A DNA stretch of 54,752 nt from Rubrobacter taiwanensis (lineage in GTDB: Bacteria; Actinomycetota; Rubrobacteria; Rubrobacterales; Rubrobacteraceae). Both the position numbers and the translations under genes were made by a program. The DNA lies in NCBI RefSeq assembly GCF_004337705.1, contig NZ_SKBU01000038.1:1-54752 (forward strand). The letters run 5' to 3'. Positions 45,846-52,636 of this stretch are shown one piece after another. The notes below the pieces were generated by a model. The model was not told the origin of the DNA, searched no databases, and worked only from the letters and a program-made list of their open reading frames with translations. How positions within the stretch are numbered: position 1 is the first letter of the stretch; every line of letters starts with the position of its first letter.

Positions 45846-46742
45846 CTACACCACCCTGTTCTGAATGTTATCCGCGGCGGCCCTCACCTCAACCCTGCCG
45901 CCGCGCACCCGAACCTCGTAGCGCGGCTGGGGGAAGACGGCGGGACCGTCCAGTACTTCTCCGCTGCACAGGTCGAAACGGGAGCCGTGCAGAGGGCAGA
46001 CGACGGTGTCGCCCCTCCGCTCCCCCTGCTCCAGGGGACCCCCGAAGTGGTTGCAGGTCGCGGAGATGGCGCAAAGCCGTCCGCTCGAAGCACGGCCGAG
46101 CAGGATGCCCACCCCCGCGGCCTCGACCCGCCGCAGGCCGCCGCCGTCCAGCTCCGCCTCGTCCAGAACCGGGGTGAACTCCTCGGGGCCGCTCCCTTCG
46201 AAGACGTTCCTGCTGACCCTCAGGCCGTAGTGGTAGGAGAGCTCTCCACCGAGGTGGGCGGCCATACCCGTCACCGAATAGCCGGCCAGGAAGGTGAGGC
46301 GTCCGGCCCGCCGGCGCCCGGCGGCCCGCAGGAGGAGCGAGGCGCCGGCGAGCAGGAGCCCGAGCGCGTTCAGGAGCCCGTGCGCCGTCCCCATCCTCCT
46401 CGACCCGCCGCTGAGGTAGCGCCAGTCGGAGAGCCCGGTCACGGCCGCACCCGCCGCGCCGACCACCCCCAGCGCGACCGAGGCGTCAGCCGCGTTTCTC
46501 ACGGCCCGGGAGCCGCCGGCGGCATCCAGCCCGTCGAAGACGGCCGCCGCGGTCCAGGACCCGATGGGAACGTCCGTGAGGGCCGGGTGCAGCGGTGCCT
46601 CGAACCAGACCCCGTCCAGGACGTTGCGGACCCGGCTCCCGCCCGCCTCGACCGCCTCCCGCACCCGGGGCTGCACCTTCTCCGCCACCCCGTCCAGGAA
46701 GGGGAGAGCGTCGACGAAGCGCTGCATAAGCGTCTGTGACAT
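45846..46742 (-). CDS. Rieske/DUF2231 membrane protein
   Basis: 298 residues. The N-terminal part is DUF2231, a four-helix membrane domain (APLHPALTDVPIGSWTAAAV). The C-terminal part is a Rieske [2Fe-2S] domain with all ligands: Cys 230/His 232 in ATCNHFGG and Cys 249/His 252 in VCPLHGSRFDLCSGEV. It probably passes electrons at the membrane. ATG 46742 follows GGAGGGAAG. It is the last gene of a leftward string, 16 bases after the ComA-like gene. Confidence 0.88.
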   Translation of the reverse strand: MSQTLMQRFVDALPFLDGVAEKVQPRVREAVEAGGSRVRNVLDGVWFEAPLHPALTDVPIGSWTAAAVFDGLDAAGGSRAVRNAADASVALGVVGAAGAAVTGLSDWRYLSGGSRRMGTAHGLLNALGLLLAGASLLLRAAGRRRAGRLTFLAGYSVTGMAAHLGGELSYHYGLRVSRNVFEGSGPEEFTPVLDEAELDGGGLRRVEAAGVGILLGRASSGRLCAISATCNHFGGPLEQGERRGDTVVCPLHGSRFDLCSGEVLDGPAVFPQPRYEVRVRGGRVEVRAAADNIQNRVV

Positions 46743-46758
46743 CTTCCCTCCGTCTCCT

Positions 46759-47598
46759 CTAGCCCTTATAGGTGAGCACGCGGCCCCACAGGCTCTTGGT
46801 GCCCCAGATGCCGCGCCGCAGGGTCTCAAGCTGCACGATCTGGGAGTGGTCCACAAACAGGTTCACCTCGGGCCCGTAGTTCTTCACATACCACTCAAAG
46901 ACCTCCGGGTCTGCGGCCTCGAACATGACCTTCTCCAGCCCCAGAGCGTTGATGACCTCCGCCGGCACGTCGGTGCGCCAGGGGTCGGCGTTCTCGGTTA
47001 TGCCCTCGGACTCGATCATGACCATGTAGGCACCGGCCTCCAAGAAGCGCCGGGCCTGGGAGATCATCCACTCCGGATCGCGGGTGCCCTCGGCCTGAAG
47101 CTCCCCGGCGGCGGTGTCACCCCCGGCGCCGAACTGGATGCCGACCTCCGGCTTGGCCTTAAGGCCCGCCTTCTGAACCCGCTCTACCAGCCGGAGCCAG
47201 TCGTCGGTGGGGATGGTGATGAATCCGCCCGAGATCTCGATCATGTCGAAGCCCACCTCCCGGCATGCCTGAATGTATTTGTCCACGGCCTCCGGCCCCT
47301 GGGTCAAGACGTACTCGATGAACCCGCCGGTGGAGACCAGCACGTCGTGCTCGTGGGCCGTCTCGATGATCTCTTTGAGCGCCTCATCCGGCATCAGCGT
47401 GAAGGACCCGCCCGCGAACTTCAGGGAGTCCACGTACTCGCCCATGGTCTCCAGCACGTCTTTGAGGTAACGCCTGCCCATGGCCGAGTAGTAAGGGCCC
47501 CGGATCTCGGTTATGCCGCGGCTCCTCGGCTTGCCCTCCCGCTCGTTCATCCGCAGGAAGCCGAAGGCGGTCCTGTTGGTGATGGCCGTCTCGCTCAT
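46759..47598 (-). CDS. ComA-like phosphosulfolactate synthase-family protein
   Basis: 279 residues. Strong segment-by-segment similarity to archaeal ComA: GEYVDSLKFAGGSF, VSTGGFIEYVLTQG, MIEISGGFI, KPEVGIQFG, EKVMFEAADPEV and QLETLRRGIWGT. ComA adds sulfite to phosphoenolpyruvate in coenzyme M synthesis; relatives outside methanogens are mostly uncharacterised. Here it lies 19 bases after an MmgE/PrpD gene and 16 before a Rieske gene, a context not linked to coenzyme M. A Michael-addition role on another unsaturated acid is possible. Confidence 0.8.
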   Translation of the reverse strand: MSETAITNRTAFGFLRMNEREGKPRSRGITEIRGPYYSAMGRRYLKDVLETMGEYVDSLKFAGGSFTLMPDEALKEIIETAHEHDVLVSTGGFIEYVLTQGPEAVDKYIQACREVGFDMIEISGGFITIPTDDWLRLVERVQKAGLKAKPEVGIQFGAGGDTAAGELQAEGTRDPEWMISQARRFLEAGAYMVMIESEGITENADPWRTDVPAEVINALGLEKVMFEAADPEVFEWYVKNYGPEVNLFVDHSQIVQLETLRRGIWGTKSLWGRVLTYKG

Positions 47599-47617
47599 CG
47601 CATCGCCTCCTCTCTCT

Positions 47618-48985
47618 CTATCGCTCGCCGACTTTTTCGAGCAGCCCGGTTAGCTCCCGGACCTCTATCTCATCCAGCCGACCGACGGCATCCGCCGTAG
47701 CCTCAAGGAGCTTTCCGTCGGCGTGAGGCGCCGCCAGACGCTCGAACTTCTCCACCACCCGCTCCCAGGACATGGGCCGGGTGAAGAAGCCCTCGTAGTC
47801 GCGCTTCTCGGCCTCCAGGGTTCGGCCGTCCTGCAGGAAGACGCGGATGCGGCAGGGCATCTCCTGCGGGAAGCGCCGGCTCAGGTCGTAGGCGGGCCGG
47901 ACCACAACCCGGCGCAGAAGGTCCTGCACGTCCTCGCTCCCTATCCGCTCCGGCCGGTACTGACCGGGGCCGACCTCCCCGTCCAAAAGCGCCACGGCCA
48001 GCATGTAGGGCAGGCTGTGGTCGGCCTCCTCCTTGGTGCGCACCCGGCGCTTGTCCCCTTCCTCTCCCCCGCCGATGATGTTGTACGCCACATCGAAGGT
48101 GTCGAGCTCGATGCGCTCTATCTGCCCGCCGGAGAGTCCGTGCCGCTCTTTGAGCCCCAGGATGCCTTCGAGGGCGGACTGGGAGTGGATCTCGGCGTTG
48201 TACTTCTTCAGAATCGTGCGCCTGACCAGCTCCAGATCCTCACCCTCCCAGTCGATCTCGAAGCGGCCGGCGATGGCCTGCATGAAACCCTTGTTCCCCT
48301 CGAAGACCTCGGGAGGGCCGGTTATGCCCCGCATCGCCAGAAACGCCGCGTGGGTAGCCGCAAATGCGGTGTTGGGGTAGGCCAGCCCCTTCCAGTGCGA
48401 GAGCGCCCCGGTGCGCGTGACACGCAGGGCGTTGTTGGCCGTGCCGCTGATGGAGATGGCGTTGGCCGTCTTCTCCTCGTCGAGGCCCAACGCCCGGGCG
48501 ACCCCAGCCGCGGCCGCATAAGCCCCCTGAGTGGTGTGGTCGAAGCCCTTCGCCCGCACCGGAGCCTCCTCCGAGAGCCGCCCCTGCACCTGGTAGGCCA
48601 CGGCCAGGGCCGTGAGCAGCTCCCGCCCGCTCCCACCGGCGTACTCGCTCGCGGCCAGGACCGCTCCGAGGTTGTCGGAGGGGTGACAGGTCTCCCCTCC
48701 GGCCAGGAAGGAGTCGTTGTAGTCCAGGTAGCGCACCAGCGCGCCGTTGTAGAAGGCGGCACGGTCGGGAGCGGTCTTGCCCCCGCCTACGAGCGTGGCC
48801 AAAGGGTTGCCCCCGAACTCGGCGATCTGCTCCCGGATCATCCGCACCGGCTCCCCTCCCAGAGCGCCTATGGCGCACCCCAGGGAGTCCAAAATCCGCA
48901 CCTTGAGCTCCTCCACCGCCCCCTCCGAGAGGCGCTCGTAAGAGGCGCGGGCGACGAACCGTGCCAGACTTTCGACATGGGTCAT
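47618..48985 (-). CDS. MmgE/PrpD-family protein
   Basis: 455 residues, the family of 2-methylcitrate dehydratase and cis-aconitate decarboxylase. Seen: VRILDSLGCAIGALGG near the N-terminus, NGALVRYLDYNDSF (the conserved YLDxND), HPSDNLGAVLA, AISISGTANNALRV and HSQSALEGI. The full length points to a functional enzyme, but the substrate is unknown. I chose ATG 48985, with GGAGG upstream. A TATATATATT run 60 bases upstream may hold a promoter. It heads a PrpD-ComA-Rieske gene group. Confidence 0.85.
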   Translation of the reverse strand: MTHVESLARFVARASYERLSEGAVEELKVRILDSLGCAIGALGGEPVRMIREQIAEFGGNPLATLVGGGKTAPDRAAFYNGALVRYLDYNDSFLAGGETCHPSDNLGAVLAASEYAGGSGRELLTALAVAYQVQGRLSEEAPVRAKGFDHTTQGAYAAAAGVARALGLDEEKTANAISISGTANNALRVTRTGALSHWKGLAYPNTAFAATHAAFLAMRGITGPPEVFEGNKGFMQAIAGRFEIDWEGEDLELVRRTILKKYNAEIHSQSALEGILGLKERHGLSGGQIERIELDTFDVAYNIIGGGEEGDKRRVRTKEEADHSLPYMLAVALLDGEVGPGQYRPERIGSEDVQDLLRRVVVRPAYDLSRRFPQEMPCRIRVFLQDGRTLEAEKRDYEGFFTRPMSWERVVEKFERLAAPHADGKLLEATADAVGRLDEIEVRELTGLLEKVGER

Positions 48986-49044: not shown

Positions 49045-49527
49045 TCATCCCTCCGCCGGCTCCCAGCGGTCCCCCTTCCGGATTAGCGTCACGGCCCGCA
49101 GGCCGTAGGGATCGGGCGCGATGTCGCGGGAGAGGTTCATGAGCTCGATCCGGTGGGGCACGAATTCTATGAGCACATAGTCCTCCGCACCCGGCCCTGC
49201 AGGCCAGAAGGCGCTCCATTCTTCCCGCCAGTACCGCTCCTTCGCGCTGGCGTCGTCCCGCACCCGCGCCAGACCGTAGAGCGCTGTGTAGGCCGTTTCG
49301 ACCGGATCCTGGAAGGCCAGCGCGCTGCGGCCGTCGTTCCGCACCTCGCCCACCTTGCGGGATCCCCGGCTGGTGCCCAGACAGACTGACAGGTCTTCTT
49401 CCGGGGGAAAGTGCTGCATCAGCCGCACGTCGGGCGCTCCGGACGCGTTCAGCGTCACGAAGAAGCCGTACTCCGCCTGCTCAACGGTAGCCCTCACGAC
49501 GCTCAGCAAGCCCTCCACCGACAACAC
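49045..49527 (-). CDS. Pyridoxamine-phosphate-oxidase-fold general stress protein
   Basis: 160 residues with the split-barrel flavin-binding fold of the general stress protein 26 / PNPOx-like group: YGFFVTLNASGAPDVRLMQ, SRKVGEVRNDGRSALAF and YVLIEFVPHRIELMN. Members bind FMN or F420; the true cofactor here is unknown. GTG 49527 has GGGAGG six bases upstream. It lies 29 bases after the PEP-synthase-like gene and 59 before the prpD-like gene. Confidence 0.8.
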   Translation of the reverse strand: MLSVEGLLSVVRATVEQAEYGFFVTLNASGAPDVRLMQHFPPEEDLSVCLGTSRGSRKVGEVRNDGRSALAFQDPVETAYTALYGLARVRDDASAKERYWREEWSAFWPAGPGAEDYVLIEFVPHRIELMNLSRDIAPDPYGLRAVTLIRKGDRWEPAEG

Positions 49528-49556
49528 CTTCAACCTCCCGCTTCGACTTCCAACGG

Positions 49557-50889: not shown

Positions 50890-51813
50890 CTAGGCTGCGG
50901 GGCTCCGGCGGACCACCAGAACCGGGCAGTGCGCGTGGCGCACCACGGAGTCCGAGACGCTGCCCACGAGAGCCCGGCGCACTCCGCCCAGTCCCCGGCT
51001 GCCCATCACGATCAGGCTCGCCCCTAGCTCCTCGGCCTCCTCTACTATCTCCTCGTCCGGCTCGCCAAAGGCGACCTTAGCCACGGCGACCTCCGTGCCC
51101 GCCGCCCTCATCTGCTGAGCCTTCTCCTCTATGAACGAGCGGGCCTTCCTCTTGGCCTCCTCGACGTAGCTCTCCCACCCCTCGATCAGAACGGGGGGCG
51201 TGTACGGCTGCCGCTCCGTAAGCGGGAGCGCGTACAGGAGGTGCAGCCCGGAGCCGCTAGCGGCCGAGATCTCGGCTGCCATCCGGGAGGCGGCTTCGGC
51301 CTCCCGGGAGCCGTCCACAGCGACCAGGATCTTCCCCGGCAGATAGGATTCGTTCTGCGGCTCCCCCCGCACGACCAGCACAGAGGTGTGGGCGTGGCGC
51401 AGCACACTGATCGAGACGCTACCCACTAAGGCGCGCCGCAGGGTTCCGAGGCCCCGGCTACCCACAGCCACGATCTCCACCCCCAGCTCTTCCGCAAGGC
51501 GCACGATCTCCGCGTCGGCGCGCCCCACCGCCGCATGAACACCCGCCACCTTCACGCCCGCCTCACCAAGCTTCGCCGCCTCCTCCTGCGCCCGCTCCTG
51601 CGCCTCGGCCCGCGCGCGCTCGAAGATCTCCTCCAGCATCCCGGGCTCGGCCAGGGACCACTGGTTGACGTAAGCCTCCGGAACGGTTCTCACGTAGATT
51701 AGGTGCAGCTCCGCCCCCAGCGCCTCCGACAGCTCCCGGGCCATCCCGGCGGCGCGGCGGGCCTCTCCGGAGCCGTCGGCCGCCAGCAGCACCTTCCTCG
51801 CCGGACCATCCAT
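50890..51813 (-). CDS. Tandem universal stress protein
   Basis: 307 residues with two UspA domains (about 1-148 and 155-305). Each has the ATP-binding end motif: VAVGSRGLGTLRRALVGSVS and IVMGSRGLGGVRRALVGSVS, followed by a conserved HAHxxVLVVR. Tandem Usp proteins occur in actinobacterial dormancy and low-oxygen regulons. ATG 51813 has AAGGAG next to it. It heads the leftward gene string; the 41-bp element and a CCTTAAG palindrome lie upstream. Confidence 0.92.
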   Translation of the reverse strand: MDGPARKVLLAADGSGEARRAAGMARELSEALGAELHLIYVRTVPEAYVNQWSLAEPGMLEEIFERARAEAQERAQEEAAKLGEAGVKVAGVHAAVGRADAEIVRLAEELGVEIVAVGSRGLGTLRRALVGSVSISVLRHAHTSVLVVRGEPQNESYLPGKILVAVDGSREAEAASRMAAEISAASGSGLHLLYALPLTERQPYTPPVLIEGWESYVEEAKRKARSFIEEKAQQMRAAGTEVAVAKVAFGEPDEEIVEEAEELGASLIVMGSRGLGGVRRALVGSVSDSVVRHAHCPVLVVRRSPAA

Positions 51814-51847
51814 CTCCTTCTACGCCTCCTCCCTCTGCTCGGGGATA

Positions 51848-51865
51848 CCTTAAGCTCTCTTAAGG
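51848..51865. promoter_or_regulatory. Perfect palindrome upstream of usp
   Basis: CCTTAAG CTCT CTTAAGG, 7-base arms, 34 bases before the usp ATG. Possible operator or 5'-leader hairpin. Confidence 0.4.
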
Positions 51866-51894
51866 CGAACTTTAGACGAGCGGGAGGCTACTGC

Positions 51895-51935
51895 CATGAT
51901 GAGGGCACATCATTCGCATGATCAGAATTGATCAG
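51895..51935 (-). promoter_or_regulatory. 41-bp conserved element, copy 1 (usp)
   Basis: Read on the minus strand it begins CTGATCAATTCTGATCATG and ends CCCTCATCATG. It matches copy 2 (52676-52716) at 32 of 41 positions without gaps, lies 81 bases before usp, and overlaps the stop of the PAS-LuxR gene. It includes TGATCA-n4-TGATCA. Confidence 0.65.
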
Positions 51936-52636
51936 CGGGGCAGTATCCCGAGCTCCCGCGCCCGGGAGACGGCCTCGAGCTGGGAGTGCGCCCCGAGCGC
52001 CTGCAGCACGGCGCTCACGTGGTTTCTGACCGTGGCCTCAGAGAGGTAGAGCTCCTGGCTGACCTCCCGGACCGTCTTGCCCCTGGAGAGCAGCTCCAGC
52101 ACCTCCAGCTGCCGGGGCGTCAGAGCCGGGACGTCCCTACGGCCCGAAGCGGCGGGCCTGTCCCGCTTGGAGGAGATCTGGATGAGCCCGCGGGCCATCT
52201 CCAGCGCCTCGTGGGCCTCCTGCGCGTCGCGCAGCAGGTGTACGAGGTACGGACCGTCACCGCCCTCCAGGCTCAGGATGCTCACGTTCACCCAGCGCTT
52301 CTCTCCCGAGCGGGTGGTGATGCGCATGTCGTAGCTCGAGACGGGCCGTCCGGCCCGGGCCAGATGCATGACCGAGCACCCGTAGGTGCAGAACGGCCCG
52401 CCCCCCTCGCGTTCACCCAGAATCACCTCGTAGCACTGCTTGCCCAGAACCTCCCCGGCCAGAATCCCGGTGAGCGACTCCGCCGCCCCGTCCCAGTGCA
52501 CGACCCTGTAGTCCGGCCCCACCACGAAGACCGCATCCCCCGTGCGGGCCTCGACTATCCTGCGTACCGCCTCGGGCAGCTCATGCACCCCGCTTTCAGA
52601 CCCCATCAGCCGTACCCCGGTGATCTTCGCTTCCAA
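51932..52636 (-). CDS. PAS-LuxR transcriptional regulator with three cysteines
   Basis: 234 residues: PAS domain (about 20-140), then a LuxR/NarL-type HTH (about 168-230, LTPRQLEVLELLSRGKTVRE ... LSEATVRNHVSAVLQALG). The PAS domain has Cys 68 (GKQCYEVILG), Cys 83 and Cys 87 (GPFCTYGCSVM), a cysteine set found in some redox- or metal-sensing PAS domains. There is no receiver domain, so the sensor and DNA-binding parts are in one chain. Start TTG 52636 is close to TAATAT at 52651-52656. It is divergent from doxX. Confidence 0.85.
   Translation of the reverse strand: MEAKITGVRLMGSESGVHELPEAVRRIVEARTGDAVFVVGPDYRVVHWDGAAESLTGILAGEVLGKQCYEVILGEREGGGPFCTYGCSVMHLARAGRPVSSYDMRITTRSGEKRWVNVSILSLEGGDGPYLVHLLRDAQEAHEALEMARGLIQISSKRDRPAASGRRDVPALTPRQLEVLELLSRGKTVREVSQELYLSEATVRNHVSAVLQALGAHSQLEAVSRARELGILPR

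Follow-up and report, generated by a model that had tools for sequence, protein, structure and literature searches.

The nearest described relatives of the two enzymes considered here are, on one side, the phosphosulfolactate synthase ComA of Methanocaldococcus jannaschii (structure 1qwg) and of Bacillus subtilis (1u83) and, on the other, the 2-methylcitrate dehydratase PrpD of Escherichia coli (1szq), MmgE of B. subtilis (5mux) and cis-aconitate decarboxylase (CAD; 6r6t, 7br9). In a study of the E. coli enzyme, wild-type PrpD is reported to accept citrate and cis-aconitate and to carry out the dehydration with no subsequent rehydration to 2-methylisocitrate (PMC9468356). Our literature search found no paper joining phosphosulfolactate synthase with PrpD or MmgE. 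Here we describe a PrpD-type dehydratase and a ComA-like barrel enzyme that are encoded side by side in a stretch of DNA of 54,752 nucleotides from the actinobacterium Rubrobacter taiwanensis (contig NZ_SKBU01000038.1, positions 1 to 54,752; henceforth the window), and show that this gene pair recurs across many bacterial lineages and in haloarchaea. Its two members in the window are:

47618-48985, minus strand: PrpD-type dehydratase of 455 amino acids, the first gene of the pair, matching the Pfam MmgE_PrpD N and C domains (260.7 and 153.2 bits)
46759-47598, minus strand: ComA-like barrel enzyme of 279 amino acids, the second gene of the pair, matching Pfam ComA, PF02679 (291.2 bits against a cut-off of 25.2)

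The PrpD and ComA-like genes form a conserved pair

An earlier note, made from the letters of the DNA, had described a trio of genes running in one direction with gaps of 19 and 16 bases, the third coding for a membrane Rieske protein. The coordinates confirm this layout exactly, the gaps being positions 47599-47617 between the PrpD and ComA-like genes and 46743-46758 between the ComA-like and Rieske genes, and GGAGG-type sites, read by eye, stand ahead of the latter two. Comparison with relatives upholds the note's grouping in part: PrpD and ComA-like are kept together, but among the 96 window-type loci scanned the Rieske gene adjoins them only in the window and at one further locus, L142. 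The conserved unit is the pair and not the trio.

We scanned public genomes with the ComA-like subfamily and, from 350 confirmed matches, took the best 80 (68-81% identity), a choice that favours close relatives. In 59 of these 80 loci the ComA-like gene is directly preceded by a PrpD gene of the same orientation; of the remainder, one has PrpD on the other strand, two have too little sequence and 18 have no PrpD at the locus. By their tree labels the pair-bearing loci span more than 10 phyla, with Chloroflexota, Calditrichota, Myxococcota, Acidobacteriota, Methanobacteriota, Armatimonadota, Planctomycetota, Nitrospirota, Chlamydiota, Thermomicrobiota and Balneolota represented, although many of the genomes are metagenome-assembled (MAGs) and single phylum labels could be binning errors. 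Among plasmid copies, the 7/7 inspected (Salinibacter, Methylosinus, Methylocystis and four haloarchaea) show this arrangement too, PrpD preceding the ComA-like gene without a change of strand, though in two of the seven small genes intervene. On the plasmid of Halorussus limi, PrpD and ComA-like are separated by a gene (L156:7332-7745) annotated as a CGCGG family rSAM-modified RiPP protein.

The two genes are linked far beyond chance, and they are inherited together. Over 74 pairs, across which the ComA-like enzyme has a mean identity of 72%, the distances among the PrpD proteins correlate with those among the ComA-like proteins with r 0.855, a value reached by 0 of 2000 permutations, to which no probability is attached as the rows are related. 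Among 39 Rubrobacteraceae genomes, an intact window-type ComA occurs in 6, and a close PrpD (77-81% identity) occurs in exactly the same 6 and in none of the other 33. Two members of the family depart from this type: G012 has only a ComA-like remnant (L016:9535-10116), some 105 residues having been deleted from its interior, and G033 has another type of ComA (27% identity); neither genome gives a PrpD match. A weak DUF488 match lies beside the G012 remnant. A search with the window PrpD in the 20 hosts without it at the locus recovered a relative of 62-71% identity elsewhere in the genome in 5 and one of 40-41% in four Verrucomicrobia, the rest giving weaker or no matches. Since most of these hosts lack a close PrpD elsewhere, the ComA-like enzyme can occur without its usual partner.

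As to sampling, the 96 window-type loci include the window itself (L017), one contig, of genome G026, appears both as L012 and as L073, and there are near-copies among the loci, namely several from Balneolaceae and Thermogemmatispora. The tree was built without L012, L014, L016, L017, L073 and L125, and in it L152 bears the label 'solo' although PrpD is present there on the other strand.

A rebuilt active site in the ComA-like protein

The model of the ComA-like protein is an eight-stranded barrel (predicted local distance difference test score, pLDDT, 86.9). Its closest structures are 1qwg, 9cm1 and 1u83 at Z 27-29, with the next barrels at 15.4; superposition on 1qwg gives Z 29.0 and a root-mean-square deviation of 2.2 over 241 aligned residues, and that on 1u83 gives Z 27.1. 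The protein thus has the fold of the M. jannaschii and B. subtilis synthases, to which it is about 26% identical and with which it has the invariant acidic residues in common. At the mouth of the barrel, however, the window type differs from both, as emerged from a residue comparison between 97 window-type sequences (96 of them intact) and 35 others (33 from the loci, plus 1qwg and 1u83). The Lys of the EVGxK motif (residue 137 of the M. jannaschii chain by our own count), present in 35/35 of the others, is Gln155 in 96/96 intact window-type members; the next Arg, present in 34/35, is Glu198; and an Asn, present in 35/35, is Phe248. A RESG-type motif, found in 31 of the 35 others, occurs in none of the 97 window-type sequences. 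The window type also has an extra loop near 159-169, and in the window a PrpD gene stands beside it. These replacements are uniform in the 96 intact members, the lone exception being the G012 remnant, from which the region is missing. The window-type group has E31, R33, K149 and D250 as invariant residues of its own and keeps E95, E121, E151, E196, E227 and R261 from the wider family.

The Lys of EVGxK, the following Arg and the RESG loop are found alike in archaeal enzymes, in those of spore-formers and in those of coenzyme M clusters; the cluster enzymes of Mycolicibacterium and Xanthobacter retain all three, that of Xanthobacter beside the gene for 2-hydroxypropyl-CoM lyase. Presumably, it is this Lys and the RESG loop that bind the phosphate of phosphoenolpyruvate (PEP). 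Because both have been lost, a reaction of PEP with sulfite is unlikely, and the ComA-like protein probably does not use PEP as ComA does, despite its entry in public records as phosphosulfolactate synthase. The retained acidic residues could hold magnesium, and Gln155, Glu198 and the missing RESG loop argue for a substrate that is not phosphorylated. The earlier note's view of the ComA signature segments as well kept therefore holds for the acidic residues, including those that could bind magnesium, but not for the Lys, the Arg and the RESG loop, with which the presumed phosphate site has gone. In line with this, the protein reaches 104.2 bits against a cut-off of 280 in the NCBIfam equivalog for archaeal ComA, a threshold of which bacterial enzymes could also fall short. 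We found no ComA in the window genome besides the window copy.

The pocket of the PrpD partner

The model of the PrpD protein has a pLDDT of 93.1. The structure alignments for the two enzymes comprised 36 ComA and 28 PrpD rows, some cut or truncated rows having been dropped. Structure scores do not tell PrpD from CAD, all lying at Z 41-45 (CAD 43.7-44.6, PrpD 41.3-43.5), the window protein having the fold of both. The pocket is more informative. It holds the PrpD-type residues R85, N90, E98, H101, D104, N105, D149, H150, R188, E265, H267, Q269 and D322, and all of these but H101 are positions that separate PrpD from CAD, at each of which the window protein is identical to 1szq; from 6r6t and 7br9 it differs at Asp104, Asn105, Glu265, His267 and Asp322. 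Judged from these residues, the protein keeps the pocket of a 2-methylcitrate dehydratase and not the itaconate-forming one.

Within this pocket, the methyl-facing Trp110 and Gly111 of E. coli PrpD are replaced by Thr99 (67/74 rows, with 6 Ser and 1 gap) and Cys100 (67/74 rows), while Ile331 corresponds to Ile303 in 73/74 rows. The E. coli study reports that exchange of Trp110 and Gly111 favoured citrate (PMC9468356). The window protein also reaches none of the NCBIfam PrpD equivalogs (161.2, 142.5 and 120.8 bits against cut-offs of 950, 575 and 458). A search of the window genome found no PrpB-like gene, the only matches being of 54.5 and 33.2 bits, which weakens the case for a classical 2-methylcitrate cycle; an isocitrate-lyase-like match is present.

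A proposed two-step reaction and the alternatives to it

The pair probably carries out two consecutive steps of a pathway. We tentatively favour, at rather less than even confidence, a portable two-enzyme module in which PrpD would dehydrate a citrate-like acid, with water or some other nucleophile then being added across the double bond by the ComA-like enzyme. The outline given in the earlier note, in which an unsaturated acid made by the first enzyme receives a nucleophile from the second, remains the best one for the linked pair. As to substrate, nucleophile and direction, we infer the following course. PrpD would take water from a citrate-type hydroxy-tricarboxylate to yield a cis-aconitate-type acid, by the 2-methylcitrate dehydratase chemistry that its pocket supports; since Thr or Ser takes the place of the methyl-facing Trp, citrate or a polar analogue is probably what it acts on in nature, and not 2-methylcitrate. 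The ComA-like barrel would then keep its family's chemistry of addition across a double bond, having dropped the presumed phosphate site, and would convert the PrpD product to an isocitrate-type acid by adding a small nucleophile, with water the likeliest. As the E. coli PrpD is reported not to rehydrate to 2-methylisocitrate (PMC9468356), a second enzyme would be needed for such a product. Also in favour of the proposal are stress-type neighbours, namely DUF488 (22 loci), AhpD-like CMD (16 loci) and, in Balneolaceae, a nitrite-reductase-like cluster. We know of no use of an iron-sulfur cluster in either enzyme family, and the absence of clusters would accord with the surroundings of some copies, which are of an oxidative, copper or nitrogen-oxide kind.

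In its most specific form, the proposal would make the pair a portable aconitase free of iron-sulfur (Fe-S) clusters, converting citrate via cis-aconitate to isocitrate; we consider this narrower version unlikely. Such a system would share with aconitase the net reaction, dehydration followed by rehydration of a citrate-type acid, but would consist of two enzymes in place of one, unrelated to aconitase, with no Fe-S cluster expected and with aconitase-family genes coexisting in the same genomes.

Several observations weigh against the two-step proposal. Aconitase-family genes are present in 48 of the 49 genomes searched, the window's included, leaving no obvious gap to be filled and ruling out a stand-in for a missing aconitase. 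Neither citrate synthase nor aconitase appears in the 25 commonest families shown for 138 neighbour proteins. At 18 of the 80 best loci PrpD is not at the locus, and only 5 of 20 such genomes have the 62-71% relative elsewhere. Finally, transport, TauE or sulfonate-type genes near two other ComA-PrpD clusters would suit sulfite better than water. Given that the window genome has aconitase-family genes and no PrpB-like gene, a backup or stress role would fit the module better than the replacement of a missing aconitase or a role in 2-methylcitrate metabolism.

The clusters just mentioned bear on the strongest of the rivals, in which the ComA-like enzyme adds sulfite to an aconitate-type acid that PrpD makes or uses, or removes it, so that a sulfonated tricarboxylate is made or broken; we regard this route as rather unlikely. 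In its favour, sulfite is a substrate of the known enzymes of this fold family, as the family name conveys. Two Bradyrhizobium plasmids (L162:2322-5750 and L223:9322-12750) carry a PrpD-PrpF-ComA-like run with TctC and IclR genes, and tcuA and an SsuA-family gene lie about 10 kilobases (kb) away, beyond insertion sequences. In a pseudomonadotan genome (L198:201-8837, G453), genes for TauE, a distant ComA-like protein, three consecutive MmgE/PrpD proteins, SDR, GntR and TctC lie on one strand in what looks like a catabolic cluster for some acid. DsrE genes flank the Salinibacter copy of the pair. Set against this, the window group has lost the Lys that every other member keeps; of the neighbours tallied, APS kinase (2 of 138 proteins) is the one sulfur gene to recur; and the PrpDs of the two sulfur-flavoured clusters are without the PrpD-type pocket of the window type. 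The ComA-like proteins of these clusters lack the RESG loop as well but keep the Lys, and the L162 protein, sought in Pseudomonadota, was matched in 3 of 398 genomes, namely that of L198 and those of L199 and L200, the latter two of which carry the window type. Since their ComA-like proteins keep the Lys and their PrpDs differ in the pocket, ComA and PrpD proteins must have come together on more than one occasion, and the substrates may differ. In each of the three PrpD-linked types of ComA the RESG loop is gone, which fits a substrate without phosphate.

It is improbable that the PrpD is instead a cis-aconitate decarboxylase whose itaconate the ComA-like enzyme hydrates or otherwise modifies. 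The structure scores to CAD match those to PrpD, and at the positions invariant in the 28 PrpD partners the identity to CAD (39/105) is similar to that to PrpD (45/98), yet wherever pocket residues discriminate between the two families, the protein is PrpD-type.

A role mainly as stress proteins, in place of a metabolic pathway, along the lines described for plant HSA32, which we take to be a ComA relative, appears more improbable still. DUF488 and AhpD-like CMD genes neighbour the pair in 22 and 16 of the 96 window-type loci and in none of 33 other ComA-like loci; these counts include near-duplicates, and the comparison group, drawn from Actinomycetota and three plasmid records, has stretches no longer than about 15 kb, compared with 20 kb for the window type. 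HSA32 itself is described as chaperone-like (PMC5040591). The barrel mouth of the window type nevertheless looks catalytic, with its invariant acidic residues and the uniform replacement of the rest. Least probable of all is a true phosphosulfolactate synthase serving coenzyme M or sulfolactate with PrpD as an incidental neighbour, for which the Pfam match, the Z of 29.0 to 1qwg and the name in public records speak, and against which stand the shortfall from the archaeal ComA cut-off, the loss in all intact members of the Lys, Arg and RESG motif that coenzyme M cluster enzymes keep, and the constant PrpD partner.

Neighbouring genes

Two further genes of the window lie next to the pair:

45846-46742, minus strand: membrane protein of 298 amino acids with DUF2231 (57.2 bits) and Rieske (55.4 bits) Pfam domains, a local neighbour probably outside the module
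49045-49536, minus strand: gene of the pyridoxamine 5'-phosphate oxidase (PNPOx-like) family by family match, a local neighbour with an unsettled start

The Rieske protein has the cluster ligands CxH and CxxH, read in the sequence as CNH and CPLH, 16 residues apart. The earlier note had it handling electrons for the pair, a role that its distribution, which does not track the pair, does not support: a relative is present in 29 of the 39 Rubrobacteraceae genomes, mostly without the pair, and is missing from three pair-bearing ones, while in two it lies elsewhere in the genome. Hence, it is probably a bystander. At L142:7716-10810, from an acidobacteriotan MAG, Rieske/DUF2231, PrpD and ComA genes form a single run, so that a weak link to the pair may exist. 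The PNPOx-like gene ends (49045) 59 bases upstream of PrpD, and with it the run may comprise four genes; it has no relative at the other loci among the 96 scanned. On the opposite side lies a convergent PhoX gene, for which a twin-arginine signal match was obtained. A few genes upstream of the pair, at 50890-52636, are genes for a two-domain universal stress protein and a PAS-LuxR regulator.

Across loci, neighbour proteins were chosen by a longest-frame rule and not by a gene finder, and 138 of 300 were scanned. No single fixed third partner emerged; the recurring neighbours, which also include GTP cyclohydrolase I (4 of the 96 loci), DUF3303 (5) and a nitrite-reductase-like multicopper oxidase (5), are not universal. 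Some Balneolaceae copies lie beside genes for DUF2249, a nitrite-reductase-like multicopper oxidase, an FGE-sulfatase-like protein and SCO1; in Aliifodinibius these four and DUF488 are directly downstream of the pair (L100:10870-14971). In two loci from two phyla (L076:10829-13391 and L135:6776-8376), genes for GTP cyclohydrolase I, FolB and HPPK directly follow the ComA-like gene, with pterin-4a-carbinolamine dehydratase in addition at L076. IclR or GntR regulators occur at some loci. These neighbours suggest stress or catabolic settings and not one pathway.

Conclusions

A very conserved enzyme is spread through bacteria and haloarchaea under the name phosphosulfolactate synthase, which its active site does not support, and its constant PrpD partner, with a recognisable pocket, offers a concrete handle on its substrate. 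Should sulfite be used, the pair would represent a new organosulfonate route. Should it convert citrate to isocitrate, it would be, to our knowledge, the first two-enzyme, cluster-free stand-in for aconitase, and as a portable system it would keep the citric acid cycle or the glyoxylate shunt running under oxygen radicals, copper or nitric oxide when aconitase is damaged.

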